In this document: positions 47,870 through 55,674 of the stretch, piece by piece
How positions within the stretch are numbered: the first letter of the stretch is position 1
Layout of the letters: each line of letters starts with the position of its first letter
Assembly: GCF_005780165.1 (NCBI RefSeq)
Contig: NZ_VAUV01000011.1
Coordinates: 62,001-126,000 of the forward strand
From: Phragmitibacter flavus
GTDB taxonomy: Bacteria; Verrucomicrobiota; Verrucomicrobiia; Verrucomicrobiales; Verrucomicrobiaceae
Direction: 5' to 3'
Length of the DNA: 64,000 nucleotides
Program-made: the position numbers and the translations under genes
Notes under the pieces: generated by a model
Databases searched by the model: none
Told to the model about the DNA's origin: nothing
Seen by the model: only the letters and a program-made list of their open reading frames with translations

Positions 47870-48649
47870 TCAAACAATCAAAAAGCTCCGACTCCCTTTG
47901 TCCATCAAAGTCGCAAACACCCCCTTCAAAACCTCCTCAGAAGCCTTTGTTGCCAGCATGTAACGCTGACCTCCCTTGTTCCATGTCGCCACCTGCCATT
48001 CACCGCGACTTTCGAACTTCGTTGCTGCTTCCGGCACCCCCGGCTCAACGCCCACCATCACCAAATGGGCTTCCTGACCCGGCGCAATTTCAAAACAAAT
48101 CACTGAGGCTGGACGCCCCTCCACCTCAAACACCTTGCAGCCAAGACTGCGCATCGCCGCAAACCCATCAGGCAACTCCTCCGGCATCGGCGATCCCACT
48201 TCCTTAAGCGACGCCTTCAACAAGGCCAGGTCGCCAGAAAAACGGTCCAATCTCACCTCGTGCGAATCAATCGATTTCACCATCGACAGCGCCTGCCTCT
48301 CCCAATCCTTCCCCGTTCCTCCCGCATCGTTCCACCACCAGACACCCGCCAGCGCGATCACCACCGCCATCGTCAACAACAAGGGCAACATCCCCACCCT
48401 CCGTTTGGACACTGACGGCTCCAAATCGCGCTCCATTTCCATCGCTTTCAAGATGTCATCGTTCAATCCCGCAGGCACCGGAATCTCACCCAACGCCCCG
48501 GCCACCTGTTCATCAAACTGGCTCCGTTTTTCCAACCACTGCTGAAGTTCTGCATCCCCCGCCGCCAAGGCACGGCTTGCCTCCGAAGCATCCCCTGGGC
48601 GCAACGTGCTGGCATCCAATTCGTTTCTGGCATCTTCCGGTCTCATCAT
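47870..48649 (-). CDS. Anti-sigma-factor-like membrane protein
   Basis: This 259-residue protein has a cytosolic N-terminus of about 85 residues, one membrane helix at about 86-103 (GMLPLLLTMAVVIALAG) and a C-terminal domain outside. The N-terminal part is helical (EASRALAAGDAELQQWLEKRSQFDEQV), as in anti-sigma factors, but lacks the HxxxCxxC zinc motif. It begins 14 bases after the ECF sigma gene, the standard layout for a sigma/anti-sigma pair. It should hold the sigma factor at the membrane until a signal, plausibly metal or cysteine-peptide status given the neighbours, releases it. The assignment rests mainly on position and topology. Confidence 0.7.
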   Translation of the reverse strand: MMRPEDARNELDASTLRPGDASEASRALAAGDAELQQWLEKRSQFDEQVAGALGEIPVPAGLNDDILKAMEMERDLEPSVSKRRVGMLPLLLTMAVVIALAGVWWWNDAGGTGKDWERQALSMVKSIDSHEVRLDRFSGDLALLKASLKEVGSPMPEELPDGFAAMRSLGCKVFEVEGRPASVICFEIAPGQEAHLVMVGVEPGVPEAATKFESRGEWQVATWNKGGQRYMLATKASEEVLKGVFATLMDKGSRSFLIV

Positions 48650-48663
48650 CTTCGCATCAAAAA

Positions 48664-49239
48664 CTATTCCACCGCCCCCCTGCTGGTAGTTACGTTCTGG
48701 GTCCTGTTTAAGATATCACGCAACAACCCCTTGCCCCTCGACAATCTCGACATCACCGTCCCCACGGGAATGTCCAAAGCCTCCGCAATCTCTTTATAAG
48801 ACAACTCCTTCAAATAAAACAGCACCAACGGCGCTCGGTAACCCACCGCCAGCTCGTCGAGGGCACGTTGCAACATCGCCCCATCGACCTCCACCGGTTC
48901 AGCTGCAGGCTCATCCACCGCCTCGTGTCTCTCCGGTTCAAACTCCACCGACTCGAACCTTTTTTCCCGACGCGCCACCGCCAGCCATTCCCGATACAGC
49001 GTCGTAAACAACCAGGTCTTCACCTTCGTCGCATCCTTCAACGCATGCCCCTTCCTCGCCCACAATAGAAACGTCTGCTGCACCAGATCCTTCGCCTGCG
49101 CTTCAGCCCGGCACATGCTGAAGGCAAAGCGATACAATGCCGCATAATGCCCATCCACCAGTTGCTGAAAATCCACCTTGGAATCCATTGATGGCACAGC
49201 CAACCGAACATCCTCCCCTTGGTCAACGGAAAACTCCAT
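48664..49239 (-). CDS. ECF-family RNA polymerase sigma factor
   Basis: The protein has about 191 residues. Region 2 reads FQQLVDGHYAALYRFAFSMCRAEAQAKDLVQQTFLLWARKG, and the helix-turn-helix of region 4 is LVLFYLKELSYKEIAEALDIPVGTVMSRLSRGKGLL. These are standard marks of extracytoplasmic-function sigma factors, which redirect RNA polymerase under envelope or metal stress. The start is uncertain among 49239, 49188 and the open frame to 49341; none has a strong ribosome binding site. It is followed by the anti-sigma-like gene and lies downstream of the MNIO/DUF2063/DoxX genes, so it probably controls that operon. Confidence 0.88.
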   Translation of the reverse strand: MEFSVDQGEDVRLAVPSMDSKVDFQQLVDGHYAALYRFAFSMCRAEAQAKDLVQQTFLLWARKGHALKDATKVKTWLFTTLYREWLAVARREKRFESVEFEPERHEAVDEPAAEPVEVDGAMLQRALDELAVGYRAPLVLFYLKELSYKEIAEALDIPVGTVMSRLSRGKGLLRDILNRTQNVTTSRGAVE

Positions 49240-49279
49240 GAATAACAGCAGGTTCAACCAACTCAGGCCCGTCTGCACC

Positions 49280-49759
49280 TCATGCCCGGCGAGATTTAAG
49301 CAACAAAACATCCGCCGAATACCTCCCTGGGCCAAAGACAAACACCAGCACGGAAGCCAGCAAAAACAAGAAAGGTGCCGCCGTCACAAACGCATCAGAG
49401 TCCGAAAACATCCCCTTCAACTCCTCCACATGCGCCGTTGCATAGGCCACCATCATCACCACGATCAACGGCAGCGCCGCAAGTCGGGAACACAATCCCG
49501 CCAGCAACAACAATCCTCCAACACACTCCACTCCCCCGGCCATCATTGCCTGAAACTTCGGCAACGGCAGCCCAAGCTCACCGAAAAACTCCGCCGTTCC
49601 ATCCAGATTCATCAGCTTGCCTTTCCCCGTCAGAAAGAACTGCCAACCCCAATAAAACCGGATCAATAGCAACACTGGATCAACCAACGATGATCCTATC
49701 CTGGCGAGCCCCTCGTTCAACCCGAGCCAACCGCGTTTCAGTTTCGAATCTTCACTCAT
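49280..49759 (-). CDS. DoxX-family membrane protein of the MNIO cluster
   Basis: This 159-residue protein has four membrane helices. LVDPVLLLIRFYWGWQFFLTGKGKL is the typical first helix of DoxX proteins, followed by FFGELGLPLPKFQAMMAGGVECVGGLLLLAGLCSRLAALPL. DoxX-like proteins regularly accompany DUF692 (MNIO), DUF2063 and cysteine-rich precursor genes in bufferin-type operons (the HvfD/BufD position), with a probable role in redox or quinone chemistry at the membrane that is not settled. It lies 38 bases after the DUF2063 gene. Confidence 0.85.
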   Translation of the reverse strand: MSEDSKLKRGWLGLNEGLARIGSSLVDPVLLLIRFYWGWQFFLTGKGKLMNLDGTAEFFGELGLPLPKFQAMMAGGVECVGGLLLLAGLCSRLAALPLIVVMMVAYATAHVEELKGMFSDSDAFVTAAPFLFLLASVLVFVFGPGRYSADVLLLKSRRA

Positions 49760-49797
49760 AAAGTCACCTTTTCACATTTCGTTCGCTTCACCTCACT

Positions 49798-50712
49798 TCA
49801 CTTACAAAACCAACCGAGTGCTGCCCATTGCTCAAACCACCCGCGCACCTTCACCATCCAGTCCATCGCTCCATCCGCATCGGCCAAAGCCAGATCCAAC
49901 GCCCTCGCCAAACCATCCCCGCGACCCAACGCCTCCAGCAACAGAAACGCCTCCTTCTCCAACCTCAAAAAATACAGATCATTGTCGCACCGATGCACCA
50001 CCAGATGAACTCGCTCCCTCACAGGCAACTTCACCTTCCTGCGCACCTTCTTCCTCGACTCACCCGTCATCGCATGACTCGCCTCTTTGCGCATGCCTGA
50101 CTCAAACTTTCGCACCGCCATGAAATACACATCCACCGCATGATCCAGTTCGAGCAGCACCACATAAGGCTGCAACCTCAAACACAACTCATCCAAATTC
50201 TTCCCCAACAGCTCATCCACCTTCAAGGCCGGTCGCTTTGCCTCATCAAACGCCACCGTCTGAGCCCATTCAAATCGCGCCACATCCACCGCCATCGACT
50301 GAAGTTCTCCCGTCCACACCGGTTCCGCACGAAGAAACTCCTCCAAGCGCGATCCCAAATTGCGCAACGTAAACGACTGACTCGGACACTTGCTCAAATA
50401 AGCCACACACATCCTCTGAAATCGCCGTTGCCCCAGCAAAACGCGCAATCCGGGGTAATCCTCATACAAACAGTCCAGCAACCGAAACCAATACTGCCGG
50501 TTGTATATCTCTAACCGATCAAACCCATTCATCTGTTCATTCCCCTTCATGAATGAAGCAACCACCGACCTCGTCCTTTTCCCATCCTCCCAGGTTCGAC
50601 GCATCCCCTCGTCGGCAGCGAGTGGACGCATGACCGCGTGAGCCATCAAACGCTGCACCTCAGCAAGACCCTGCAACGAGTCGATATCAGACGGGCAATA
50701 CGGCGTTTTCAT
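49798..50712 (-). CDS. DUF2063 (HvfC/BufC-type) MNIO partner protein
   Basis: This 304-residue protein matches the DUF2063 family, once called putative DNA-binding and now known as the partner of MNIO enzymes that recognises the precursor peptide. The N-terminal region GFDRLEIYNRQYWFRLLDCLYEDYPGLRVLLGQRRFQRMC is the family signature (Y-x-x-x-x-x-R-L-x-x-x-L-x-x-x-Y-P-x-L). The C-terminal half has winged-helix-like character. Its ATG lies within the end of the DUF692 gene (26-base overlap), which points to coupled translation in equal amounts. Confidence 0.87.
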   Translation of the reverse strand: MKTPYCPSDIDSLQGLAEVQRLMAHAVMRPLAADEGMRRTWEDGKRTRSVVASFMKGNEQMNGFDRLEIYNRQYWFRLLDCLYEDYPGLRVLLGQRRFQRMCVAYLSKCPSQSFTLRNLGSRLEEFLRAEPVWTGELQSMAVDVARFEWAQTVAFDEAKRPALKVDELLGKNLDELCLRLQPYVVLLELDHAVDVYFMAVRKFESGMRKEASHAMTGESRKKVRRKVKLPVRERVHLVVHRCDNDLYFLRLEKEAFLLLEALGRGDGLARALDLALADADGAMDWMVKVRGWFEQWAALGWFCK

Positions 50713-51535
50713 GAAGATAAAGATTCGCTTTTAATGCTTCGTCATGCACCTCGTCAAAACTCGGAATGCGATCGTCCCATTCCAGCAACGTCGCCGTATG
50801 CCCGCAGCATCTAATCGTCTCCGCATACAAGGCCCAAACCGGATCAGGCACCGGCTGATCATGAGTGTCCAGAATCACCTTCTCCAACCTCGAATGCCCG
50901 GCGAGATGAATCTGCCCCACGCGGTGGGCCGGCACATTCCTCACATAATCCAAAGGATCAAACCCGTGATTCTCCGACGAAACATAGATGTTGTTCACAT
51001 CCAACAAAATCCCGCAATCCGCCGCCTCCGCCACCTCCGTCAAAAAATCCCATTCTGTCATGTTACTCTGATGAAACTCCGCATAACTGCTCACATTCTC
51101 CACACAGATCGGAACCTCCAAAAAATCCTGGGCCTCGCGGATTTTTGAAGCCGTATGTTTCGCCACCGCCATCGTGTAAGGCATCGGCAGCAAATCATGC
51201 GTATACCTGCCATCCACACTGCCCCAGCATAAATGGTCCGACAGCCATGGCGTATTCGTCCGCTTCACCAGACGTTTCAACTTCTTCAAATGCTCCCGAT
51301 TCAGCGGCTCCGCACTCCCGAAATACATCGACACCCCATGCTGCACCACCCGGTATTGTTCCAGGATCTGATCCAAAATCTCCAACGGCCTTCCCCCATC
51401 CACCATAAAATTTTCAGAAATGATCTCAAACCAATCCACCACCGGCTTCTTTTCCAGAATGTGGCGGTAATGCGGAACCCGAAGTCCCACGCCCACACCA
51501 TAGTCGGTATGATTGTTGAAAAAATTGGCAGGCAT
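50687..51535 (-). CDS. DUF692 multinuclear non-haem iron oxidase (MNIO, HvfB/BufB type)
   Basis: This 282-residue TIM-barrel enzyme belongs to DUF692, the MNIO family that includes MbnB, TglH and HvfB. Iron-binding and family stretches are visible: VGVGLRVPHYRHIL, DWFEIISENFMVDGG, VVQHGVSMYFGSAEPL, WLSDHLCWGSVDG, VCVENVSSYAEF-like PICVENVSSY, DCGILLDVNNIYVSSENHGFDP and VGQIHLAGHS. Family members use mixed-valence iron and oxygen to convert cysteine residues of small peptides into oxazolone/thioamide or thiooxazole groups that bind copper. The natural substrate here is the six-cysteine peptide encoded just upstream. Confidence 0.93.
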   Translation of the reverse strand: MPANFFNNHTDYGVGVGLRVPHYRHILEKKPVVDWFEIISENFMVDGGRPLEILDQILEQYRVVQHGVSMYFGSAEPLNREHLKKLKRLVKRTNTPWLSDHLCWGSVDGRYTHDLLPMPYTMAVAKHTASKIREAQDFLEVPICVENVSSYAEFHQSNMTEWDFLTEVAEAADCGILLDVNNIYVSSENHGFDPLDYVRNVPAHRVGQIHLAGHSRLEKVILDTHDQPVPDPVWALYAETIRCCGHTATLLEWDDRIPSFDEVHDEALKANLYLHENAVLPV

Positions 51536-51570
51536 AACAGCTTCTCAATGTGAGTTTCCATTCATCAAAC

Positions 51571-51599
51571 CGCCATCAGGGCACGCGACCCTGATGGCG
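51571..51599 (-). terminator. Intercistronic stem-loop between precursor peptide and MNIO genes
   Basis: The arms CGCCATCAGGG and CCCTGATGGCG (11 bases, perfect) enclose a 7-base loop. The hairpin lies 15 bases after the precursor stop and 35 bases before the MNIO start. No T run follows, so it may be a partial terminator or an RNA-stabilising element. Either would raise precursor mRNA above that of the enzymes, a common need in RiPP operons. Confidence 0.75.
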
Positions 51600-51614
51600 C
51601 TGATCGACCCGCGA

Positions 51615-51869
51615 CTACTTGTCTTTCTTGGTGGCGCAGCCGCCTTTGCCTTTGCAGGAGTTCTTGCCCTTGCAACCATTGTCGCCGGACTTGCAACCAC
51701 CCTGGCCCTTGCATTCGTTGTGTCCTTTGCAGGCATGCTCGCCTTTGCTGGCCATTTTTTCAATCAACACGCCCGGAGCATCCGTGACGGGATTTTGATG
51801 GGAGGAAGCGTAGGCTCCTGAGAGAAGACCTGCAAATGCGGCGCTGGCAATAAGATGTTTGGTGCTCAT
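51615..51869 (-). CDS. Cysteine-rich bufferin-like precursor peptide
   Basis: This 84-residue peptide starts with a signal sequence (MSTKHLIASAAFAGLLSGAYA) and should be exported. A 20-residue spacer (DAPGVLIEKMASKGEH) leads to a core with six cysteines in two repeats: CKGHNECKGQGGC and CKGKNSCKGKGGC, joined by KSGDNG. Within each repeat the Cys residues are six apart, and every Cys but the last is followed by Lys. Position directly before MNIO, DUF2063 and DoxX genes makes it the substrate peptide of a bufferin/HvfA-type copper-binding RiPP. Modification and metal are inferred from the family. Confidence 0.88.
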   Translation of the reverse strand: MSTKHLIASAAFAGLLSGAYASSHQNPVTDAPGVLIEKMASKGEHACKGHNECKGQGGCKSGDNGCKGKNSCKGKGGCATKKDK

Positions 51870-52002
51870 GATATTCGTGGTTAGTGGTAACTGATGGTTT
51901 CAATTTTGCTAAGTTGACCAGACCGCTTTTGCGGACAGTCGAACGTAGGAGCAACAAGGCCGGCACTTATTCCCAGATTGATAAAAAAATAAAAATACTT
52001 TC

Positions 52003-55000
52003 ATGACTTCGACACCCACCTGGCGCATCGCAGCAGACACCGGCGGAACCTTTACCGACTGCCACGCCCTCGCCCCCGACGGCACCGAGCACCGCGCCAA
52101 AGTCCTCTCCAGCGGCTGCCTGCGCGCCGTCGCTGAAAAATGGATCAATGCCAACACCGTTCAGCTATCCGATCTTTGGGACCAACAAGACGACTTCTTC
52201 AACGGCTACACCCTGCGCTTCCTAACCTCCAGCGGCACCTCGCACCCCATCCTCAGCTCCCGGGTTGTAAACCATCGCACGCTCGTCGAACTCGACGCCC
52301 CGCCTTTTCCAACAACCGAAGGCCTGCTCGTCGAACTCACAGCCCACGAAGCCGCCCCCGTTCTCGCCGCCCGCCTGATCACCCACACCCCCCTTCACCA
52401 CCCTTTCCCCAAAGTCGACTTCCGCCTCGCCACCACCCGCGCCACCAACGCCCTGCTCGAACGCAAAGGCACCGACATCGCCCTGTTCATCACCGCCGGA
52501 TTTGCCGACCTGCTTGTCATCGGCGACCAACGCCGCGCCGACCTCTTCGCCCTTCATCACCCACCCCGCGAACTCCACTACCATCAAGTCTGCGAAGTCC
52601 ACGAACGACTCACCGCCAAAGGAGAAATCCTCACCCCGCTCGACGAACCCGCCCTCCTCCAAGCCGCTCAATCGATCATCCAAAAAGGCATCCACACCGC
52701 CGCCGTCGCCCTCCTCCACAGCGACCTCAATCCCCGCCACGAACAACGCGTCCGCGAACTTCTTCTTCAATCCGGCTTCACCCACGTCTCCCTCAGCAGC
52801 GAACTCGCCCCCTTCATCAAAATCCTCCCACGCGCCCAAAGCGCGGTCGCCAATGCCTACCTCACCGGCCCCGTGGAAAAGTTCATCCGTGACGTCAAAT
52901 CGCCCCTCTCTTCCGACTCCACCCTGCACCTCATGACCAGCGCCGCGTCCCTCGAACCGGCCGACACCATTCAACCCAAAGACCTCCTCCTCTCCGGCCC
53001 CGCCGCTGGCGTCCTCGGTGCCCTCAACTCCGCCCGCGACCTCGGCTTCAAAAACATCATCACCTTCGACATGGGCGGCACAAGCACCGATGTCGCCCGG
53101 CTCGACGGCACCGTCAGTTACCGCTTTCAACAAAACGTCGGAGGCCTCACCCTGTTGAGTCCCTGCATCGCCATCGAAACCGTCGCCGCCGGCGGCGGCA
53201 GCATTTGCTGTTGGACTCCCAGCGGCCTCGCCGTCGGCCCTCACAGCGCCGGATCCGACCCCGGACCCGCCTGTTACGGCAAAGGCGGCCCCCTCACCGT
53301 CACCGACATCAATCTCCTCCTCAACCGCTTCGACCCCGACCGCGCTCCCATCCCCCTGCAACGCGCCGCCGCCCAGTTTCGCCTCACCGAACTGCTCGAC
53401 CAAATCAACCAACAAAGCGGTCGCCACATGACCGCATCCGAACTTCTTGACTCCCTCCTCGCCCTTGCGAACCAGCACATGGCCGACGCCATCCGCAAGA
53501 TCTCGGTCCTCGAAGGATACGACCCCGCCAACTATGCCCTCCTCGCTTTCGGCGGAGCCGGCCCCCAGCACGCCTGCGACCTGGCAAACGCCCTCGGCAT
53601 GCACACCATCCTCATCCCCCATCACGCCGGCATCCTCAGCGCCGTCGGCCTCCAACAAGCCCAACCCGAACGCTTCGCCCAACGCCAGATTCTCAAGCCC
53701 CTCGACCACGTCCAACCCGACCTCCCTCTCATCCTCAGCGACCTCAGTCACGAAGCCGCCAAACAACTTCTCACCATCACCCGGAACGATGAAACCCCTC
53801 TCCTTCGAAGCATCGCCGAACTCCGACTCACCGGCCAGGACACGCCACTTCAAATCGAGTTCCACGACCCCGCCTCACTTCATCAAGACTTCCGTCAGCG
53901 ATACCTGAACCTCTTCGGTTATCCCGCCCCCACCACCAAAAAGATCGAACTCGTCAGCCTTCGCGTGATTGCCACCGCCGTCGGAAGTTACGGAGTCGCC
54001 ACGCCCTCCCCACCCACCCAAACCATCTCCGGTCCCGACCTCATTCAGGACGCCTTCAGCACCCTCGTCATCGCCAAAGGCTGGATGGCCAACAATCACC
54101 CTCCCCACGGCTGGATCCTCCGCTCAGACTCACAACCCTCAACCACCAACCATCAACTCCCCCTCGATCTCCTCCGCCACCGCCTCCATGGCATCGTCGA
54201 AGACATGGGTGCCCTGCTGCGTCGCACCGCCCTTTCCACCAACATCCGCGAACGACTCGACTTCTCCTGCGCCCTTCTCACTTCCGAAGGCACCCTTCTC
54301 ACCAGCGCCCCCCACATCCCTGTTCACCTCGGTGCCCTAGGCGTCTGCGTCCGCGAAGTGCTCAAACAACATCCCCCCGAACCCGGCACCACCCTCATCA
54401 CCAATCACCCCGCCTTCGGTGGCTCCCATCTTCCTGACGTCACCCTGATCACCCCCGTCTTCGACGACCAAAACCAGCTCCTCGGCATCATCGCCAACCG
54501 TGCCCATCACGCCGAAATCGGAGGCATCTCCCCCGGCTCCATGCCCGCCAACGCCACCACCCTCGAACAAGAAGGCGTCATCATCCCCCCCATGCCCCTC
54601 GTCTTTCAAGGCGAACCCCAATTCGACACCATCCGCGACCTCCTTCTCAACGCCAAACATCCCACCCGATCCATCGACGACAACCTCGCCGACCTCCACG
54701 CCCAACTCGCCGCCAACCGACTCGGCACCCAACGTCTCCTCGAACTCCATCGCGAATCCCCCCATCTCACCGAAAGCATGCAAACCATCCTCGCCGAATC
54801 CCGGCAGGTCATGCAGCACTTCATCCCCAACCTCACCACCGGCACCGCCCAGGAATCCCTCGACGACGGCAACCTCATCAACGTCACCATCTCCACCACC
54901 CCCAATACCATCCACATCGACTTCACCGGCACCAGTCCCCAACATCCCGGCAACCTCAACGCCACCCCCGCCATCGTCCACAGCGCCATCCTCTACGTCC

Positions 55001-55674
55001 TCCGTCTCGCCCTCCAACAAAACCTCCCCCTCAACGAAGGGCTCCTCACCGACGTCCACATCACCATCCCCCCCGGCACCCTCCTCAACCCCAATTTCAA
55101 CACTTCTCCGCTTCCCGCCGTCGTCGGAGGCAATGTCGAAATCAGCCAGCGCGTCGTCGACACCCTCATCAAAGCTCTTGACCTCCAAGCCTGCAGCCAG
55201 GGCACCATGAACAACTTCCTGTTTGGCAATGACCAGTTCGGTTACTACGAAACCATCTGCGGCGGCACTGGCGCAGGCCCCGGCTATCACGGAGCCGACG
55301 CCCGTCACAGTCACATGACCAACACCGCCATCACCGACCCTGAAGTCCTCGAACGCAGGTATCCCGTCCGACTTCATCAATTCTCCATCCGCCCCGACTC
55401 GGGCGGCCAGGGTCAATGGAACGGCGGCAACGGCGTCATTCGCGAAATCGAATGGCTCGCCCCACTGACCGTCTCACTACTTACCCAACACCGCACCACC
55501 ACCCCCTTTGGAAAACACGGTGGTCAAAATGCCCAACCCGGTCAACAATCCCTCATCCGTCCTAATCAGCCACCTCAACCCTTGCCCAGCAGCATCACCT
55601 TCAATGTAGAAACAAACGACCGTCTCATCATCGAAACCCCCGGCGGCGGAGCCTGGGGCAGCCCATCATCTTAA
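52003..55674 (+). CDS. 5-oxoprolinase-type fused hydantoinase A/B protein
   Basis: This 1223-residue protein joins the two halves of the hydantoinase/oxoprolinase superfamily. Residues 8-200 form the HyuA N-terminal domain ([16 protein letters not shown], the phosphate-binding loop, and [13 protein letters not shown]). Residues about 215-520 form the HyuA ATPase core ([19 protein letters not shown] and [21 protein letters not shown]). Residues about 715-1215 form HyuB ([45 protein letters not shown] and [22 protein letters not shown]). Such fused enzymes hydrolyse 5-oxoproline to glutamate with ATP. It diverges from the cysteine-rich peptide gene across about 130 bases. No clear ribosome binding site precedes the ATG. 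Confidence 0.93.

Follow-up and report, generated by a model that had tools for sequence, protein, structure and literature searches.

What controls a bufferin operon, and to which signal does it respond? Bufferins are among the largest groups of ribosomally synthesised and post-translationally modified peptides (RiPPs), and to our knowledge their control has been described only from a few Pseudomonadota. The question is raised by a locus of the verrucomicrobium Phragmitibacter flavus, at positions 47870-51869 of the 64-kb stretch of DNA that was analysed (hereafter the window), which consists of six minus-strand open reading frames (ORFs), in transcription order bufA, bufB, bufC, doxX and the genes of an extracytoplasmic function (ECF) sigma factor and of a putative anti-sigma protein. 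A previous interpretation made from the letters alone (the sequence-only reading) had proposed a bufferin-like operon with its own sigma/anti-sigma pair in a verrucomicrobium, and family matches, a recurring gene order and an alignment of the anti-sigma protein support it; the six ORFs were recovered in the order and at the exact limits it gave, as was the 26-base overlap between the MNIO and DUF2063 genes. We consider it likely that the six genes are a Buf2-like bufferin (captophorin) operon under its own ECF switch, which pairs metal buffering with envelope repair. The features on which this rests are as follows, in transcription order.

51946..51973, minus strand: predicted ECF promoter, GGAATAA-N15-CTCCTA, 76 bp before the bufA start codon.
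51615..51869, minus strand: bufA, BufA2-like six-cysteine precursor of 84 aa with a Sec signal peptide (cleavage MSTKHLIASAAFAGLLSGAYA/S), NF050166 match.
51571..51599, minus strand: stem-loop with a 12-bp stem in the bufA-bufB gap, RNA fold z=-2.3.
50687..51535, minus strand: bufB, MNIO (DUF692) maturase of 282 aa, NF050167 and PF05114.
49798..50712, minus strand: bufC, DUF2063 partner of 304 aa with a C-terminal domain like a RiPP recognition element (RRE; PME-type 1), PF09836 at 53 bits.
49280..49759, minus strand: doxX, DoxX/HvfX-like membrane protein of 159 aa, PF07681 at 74 bits.
48664..49239, minus strand: ECF sigma factor with regions 2 and 4, 191 aa from the likely ATG, PF04542 and PF08281.
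47870..48649, minus strand: putative single-pass anti-sigma protein of 259 aa, with an N-terminal helical domain, a membrane helix at about 88-109 and a periplasmic domain.

The distances between successive genes are 79, -26, 38, 40 and 14 bases. The nearest relatives are Verrucomicrobiaceae, and among 68 genomes of this family the anti-sigma gene is present in 53 and the MNIO gene in 20. The order bufB-bufC-doxX-sigma-anti-sigma recurs in 14 of these 20, where in two cases additional sequence separates doxX from the sigma gene, and because most MNIO-bearing genomes share it the gene set cannot be a chance arrangement. The other six comprise two loci split by contig ends (G003, G011), one with doxX and the anti-sigma gene but without a called sigma gene, one remnant and two without a nearby pair. 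In four loci of other Verrucomicrobiota (L025, L026, L032 and L045) the pair lies directly upstream of bufA. In nine acidobacterial loci a sigma gene comes immediately downstream, and the next gene in every case encodes a zinc-finger protein of 82-92 aa (zf-HC2, confirmed by Pfam in one) which, judged from its sequence, is a typical small anti-sigma protein. The main survey of MNIO clusters found sigma and NrsF genes in Buf1 and not in Buf2 clusters (PMC12452194), so that a Buf2-like operon with an ECF sigma/anti-sigma pair runs contrary to it; new here are this association and the differing anti-sigma types in two phyla.

The precursor itself belongs to a large family. The bufA product matches the NCBIfam model of BufA2 (NF050166) with E=4.8e-9 and 36.3 bits, under the curated cut-off of 60 bits, and with six conserved cysteines (47, 53, 59, 66, 72 and 78; spacing 6-6-7-6-6), a short exported product and a gene 79 bp before bufB it has the layout of the BufA2 type. 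From loci picked by their MNIO gene, 83 distinct precursors were extracted and 81 aligned; these span Verrucomicrobiota and Acidobacteriota, share the core CKGxNxCKGxGGC followed after about six residues by CKGKNSCKGKGGC, and keep the six cysteines in 93-100% of members, while 80 of the 81 match the BufA2 model (best E 4.3e-14). The sequence-only reading had called this an unusual CKG-repeat peptide and had suggested a search among relatives; with 81 distinct relatives in hand, the unusual character is not borne out and a lineage-specific oddity is ruled out, so that the peptide is less unusual than first claimed and its regulation more interesting. In the signal peptide, which was called by eye, A11 and G14 are invariant and A10 and G18 nearly so in the alignment, which fits the published suggestion that BufBC reads the signal peptide (PMC12452194). 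Within the family, bufA occurs in 19 genomes and BufB in 20, in essentially identical sets. The Buf1 (DUF2282) and EGKCG/HvfA peptide types were rejected for want of a profile match, and a search for plasmid copies of the peptide found none. Four loci (L028, L037, L049 and L080) encode variants in which a lipobox-like cysteine closes the signal peptide (e.g., VTGCS, TSGCA), which from this sequence feature are probably membrane-anchored, and two loci (L004 and L080) have two bufA copies each, the second copy in L004 lying some hundreds of bases upstream of the sigma gene.

PF05114, PF09836, PF07681 and sigma-70 regions 2 and 4 are all matched above the Pfam gathering scores. BufB exceeds the cut-off of NF050167 (352.6 bits against 310) and matches PF05114 with E=1.6e-106. 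Its ligand motifs, compared with the solved MNIO enzymes 3bww, TglH (8hci) and MbnB (7dz9), are invariant in 88 sequences (H66, H101, E146, D179/N181, H210, D223, H225 and E252), and from the alignment and general knowledge of the family we take these residues to be the likely iron ligands. The AlphaFold model of BufC (pLDDT 92) best matches NGO1945 (3dee) and the TglHI complex (8hi7) in the PDB, over most of their lengths, and thereby identifies a DUF2063-RRE architecture. DoxX scores 78.1 bits against NF050144 (HvfX), just under the cut-off of 80. 5-Thiooxazole is reported from every MNIO-PME1 product characterised (PMC13097082), which makes it the default expectation for BufA. Among the papers that were searched, none dealt with verrucomicrobial MNIO RiPPs.

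The likely cognate promoter motif of the sigma factor, together with the regulon and the intercistronic hairpin described below, goes beyond the sequence-only reading. The sigma product has only regions 2 and 4 and its best PDB matches are ECF structures; its longest ORF, from a TTG, begins at 49341 inside doxX, and the ATG start was preferred. On both strands of the window, GGAATA-N14-18-CTCnnA has a single match, the one before bufA. The motif was found upstream of 36 of the 83 distinct bufA genes, against 0.05 expected from dinucleotide shuffles, with a usual spacing of 15 between GGAATAA and CTC, and a stricter pattern was about ten times commoner in the 68 genomes than its reversed control. 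Verrucomicrobial bufA upstream regions carry it more often with a local sigma gene (17/21) than without (19/43; p=0.007). Genomes that have an orthologous sigma/anti-sigma pair but no bufferin served as an independent test, and in most of them the motif immediately precedes the sigma gene, which is what autoregulation of an ECF factor would predict. Where bufA has no sigma gene nearby, the anti-sigma gene was present elsewhere in 13 of 13 genomes with the motif and in 12 of 18 without (p=0.03, uncorrected for relatedness), which is consistent with a pairing of sigma factor and motif, though not decisive. A scan for sigma-70 promoters and terminators gave matches near shuffle level and carried no weight. 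The acidobacterial loci (L036, L058, L070 and others) have a different promoter-like motif before bufA, TGTTACC-N~17-TCTAAC, present in 6 of 12 loci with a nearby sigma gene and in 0 of 7 without.

Recurrent matches of the motif in the family point to two further targets, namely the gene of the methionine-sulfoxide reductase MsrP, followed by that of MsrQ, and that of an exported MsrB, all three identities being confirmed by NCBIfam. Some tens of bases ahead of the gene, the motif was found for 17 of 27 MsrP and 23 of 30 MsrB genes, and it matches nowhere else in these 57 loci, which amount to about 410 kb with both strands counted. In the P. flavus genome msrP is also preceded by the motif (GGAATATTTTTGATCGTCGCTTCTCTCA), and because the strict pattern gives seven matches there against four in the control, the bufA and msrP sites are the only credible ones. 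A motif shared by bufA and msrP in the genome itself, and by the sigma gene in relatives, is the signature of a SigF-type regulon as predicted from sequence, and by analogy its content comes very close to that of the copper-induced sigma-F regulon in Caulobacter. Two single cases near background were noted in the P. flavus genome as possible further targets, 39 bp before a DsbD-like gene (G000:C3:407-434) and 94 bp before an NDH-2-like gene (G000:C7:212661-212689).

The protein that would hold this sigma factor in check is co-encoded with it and may be a class I membrane anti-sigma factor, since its predicted architecture fits that class: a helical domain at the N terminus, one membrane helix and a domain in the periplasm. 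Its model (pLDDT 86) shows a single membrane-type helix at 88-109, the generic model NF052375 is matched weakly (26.9 bits, below cut-off), and searches found neither a Pfam match nor a paralogue in the genome. NrsF (PF06532, six membrane helices) was rejected, with no Pfam match and one membrane helix in the model. Two cysteines of the periplasmic domain, Cys171 and Cys185, never vary in the alignment, and His195 hardly varies; the two cysteines lie on adjacent strands of a predicted hairpin (167-176 and 179-189), where, going by the model, they could form a disulfide or a metal site. The domain is weakly similar to the C-terminal domain of RseB/MucB (Foldseek E 6.7e-4; Z 7.8, root-mean-square deviation 3.2 over 91 residues), a Z of this size being one that can reflect a common arrangement; here it is fused to the anti-sigma protein, whereas RseB and MucB are separate proteins.

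We therefore propose the following course of events. BufA would be made with a Sec signal peptide, BufB and BufC would oxidise its core cysteines, most likely to 5-thiooxazoles, and the modified peptide would be exported to the periplasm, where it would bind Cu(I)/Cu(II). The anti-sigma protein would keep the ECF sigma factor at the inner membrane until a signal from the periplasm, probably copper or thiol oxidation or both, acts on Cys171/Cys185 and frees it to recognise GGAATAA-N15-CTCnnA. This would switch on the buf operon, including sigma and anti-sigma genes (autoregulation), and, elsewhere in the genome, the periplasmic methionine-sulfoxide reductase MsrP, giving a combined response of metal buffering and envelope repair.

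The sequence-only reading, which was mostly right, had likened the locus to a module of Pseudomonadota that may be sigma-controlled; as put, this was too broad, since sigma and NrsF genes there accompany Buf1 and the anti-sigma protein here is not NrsF. With the Buf2/BufA2 bufferins (Antoine et al. 2025, PMC12452194) the locus shares a six-cysteine exported precursor, the order bufA-bufB-bufC(-doxX), BufB and the DUF2063-RRE partner; it differs in its distinct precursor clade below the curated cut-off and in the ECF pair, which the survey reports as absent from Buf2 clusters. In Caulobacter the regulon of SigF takes in two Buf1 operons, DoxX, MsrPQ and SigF itself; copper induces it, and mutation of sigF leaves cells sensitive to the metal (PMC8224329), and NrsF has two conserved periplasmic cysteines whose substitution derepresses the regulon (PMC3511200). 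Common to both systems are an ECF factor, an anti-sigma protein with two conserved periplasmic cysteines and a small autoregulated regulon of bufferin operon, DoxX and MsrP (here predicted). The peptides there are Buf1 (DUF2282) and here BufA2-like; NrsF is a six-helix protein, whereas the single-pass protein here has no NrsF match; MsrB is added in the verrucomicrobial relatives, and sigma and anti-sigma genes end the bufferin operon. RpoE2/HrsE of Haemophilus influenzae likewise joins ECF control of an MNIO cluster to methionine-sulfoxide repair, RpoE2 controlling msrAB and a doxX/DUF692/DUF2063 cluster under hypochlorous acid (HOCl), but with an EGKCG-type peptide, a 67-aa cytoplasmic anti-sigma protein and a sigma gene outside the MNIO operon (PMC7907618). 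Brucella BcrS/AbcS, in which BcrS responds to HOCl (PMC8315932), shares an autoregulated ECF factor over a methionine-sulfoxide reductase system (MsrPQ in Brucella), with a methionine-rich peptide in place of a bufferin. By analogy, the verrucomicrobial system would work like those of Caulobacter and Haemophilus, with a different peptide clade, anti-sigma protein and operon layout.

Distant phyla share this regulon content while using different anti-sigma proteins, which suggests that the pairing matters functionally. A further step is that Verrucomicrobiota (and Acidobacteriota, with a zinc-finger anti-sigma protein and another promoter) evolved, separately from Pseudomonadota, an ECF switch joining bufferin and periplasmic methionine-sulfoxide repair, by way of a previously undescribed single-pass anti-sigma protein whose RseB-like domain senses copper or oxidants through its invariant cysteine pair; on this we are evenly divided.

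Several observations count against an operon under its own switch. The 19 motif-bearing loci without a local sigma gene mean that the link to the sigma factor rests partly on genomes with the pair elsewhere, the motif is missing from 4 of the 21 verrucomicrobial bufA upstream regions that have a sigma gene nearby, and the strict pattern is near background in the P. flavus genome. The peptide scores below the BufA2 cut-off. One could then regard the sigma/anti-sigma pair as a mere neighbour, with another promoter driving buf and the ECF factor answering an unrelated envelope stress, as might be read from the pair occurring without buf in most family genomes and from some buf loci with neither local sigma gene nor motif. 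We judge this unlikely: the motif of the stand-alone sigma genes also precedes bufA, as the sole copy in the window, the gene order is kept in 14 of 20 genomes, and Acidobacteriota have an ECF factor and zinc-finger anti-sigma protein at the same operon position. It seems equally doubtful, or slightly more so, that the peptide acts as a metallothionein-like chelator without modification, or carries a modification other than thiooxazole, for although its clade has no known chemistry and its score is low, BufB is above its cut-off with conserved ligand motifs, BufC is present, A11 and G14 are invariant as expected if BufBC reads the signal peptide, and the family genomes that have bufA are those that have bufB.

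The nature of the signal is the point on which the operon with its own switch meets a stronger competitor. That the switch senses oxidants (HOCl, peroxide or disulfide stress) and not copper, the peptide being mainly a sacrificial thiol or directed against oxidation-released metal, is a real possibility, if one we do not favour. The other recurrent targets are MsrP, MsrQ and MsrB, Brucella BcrS (PMC8315932) and Haemophilus RpoE2 (PMC7907618) answer HOCl, and DoxX is tied to thiol stress in the same literature; the SigF regulon of Caulobacter, which has this content too, is nevertheless copper-induced and needed for copper tolerance (PMC8224329). Telling the two signals apart is difficult, since copper oxidises periplasmic thiols and methionine. 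What bufferin operons sense becomes open to reporter and point-mutation tests, given a defined promoter motif and a predicted regulon, small in size, in which the buffering of copper is coupled to the repair of oxidised envelope proteins.

Between bufA and bufB the strong stem-loop listed above recurs in kind. Homologous gaps fold with z<-2 in 63 of 74 cases (mean z -3.6 against mononucleotide shuffles), the structure being kept across loci and the sequence not, and some hairpins are followed by T runs. The simplest reading of these sequences is that the hairpin is probably a partial terminator or a 3' stabiliser that raises the precursor over the enzyme.

Outside bufferin operons, a conserved operon partner of the stand-alone sigma/anti-sigma pairs was sought and none was found. 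In one decayed operon (L121; G041:C60:103600-113800) no bufA was found, the MNIO and DUF2063 genes are truncated pieces and doxX is missing, while the sigma and anti-sigma genes are intact, which suggests that bufferin genes can be lost while the switch persists. Other family genomes contain a second clade of such sigma/anti-sigma pairs, more distant from the first (L196-L202, L205 and L206); two genomes (G013 and G016) hold both clades, and some second-clade loci also have the motif upstream. Divergent from bufA, at 52003-55674 on the plus strand of the window, lies the gene of a 1223-aa fused hydantoinase/oxoprolinase-like protein which matches the caprolactamase alpha and beta models.

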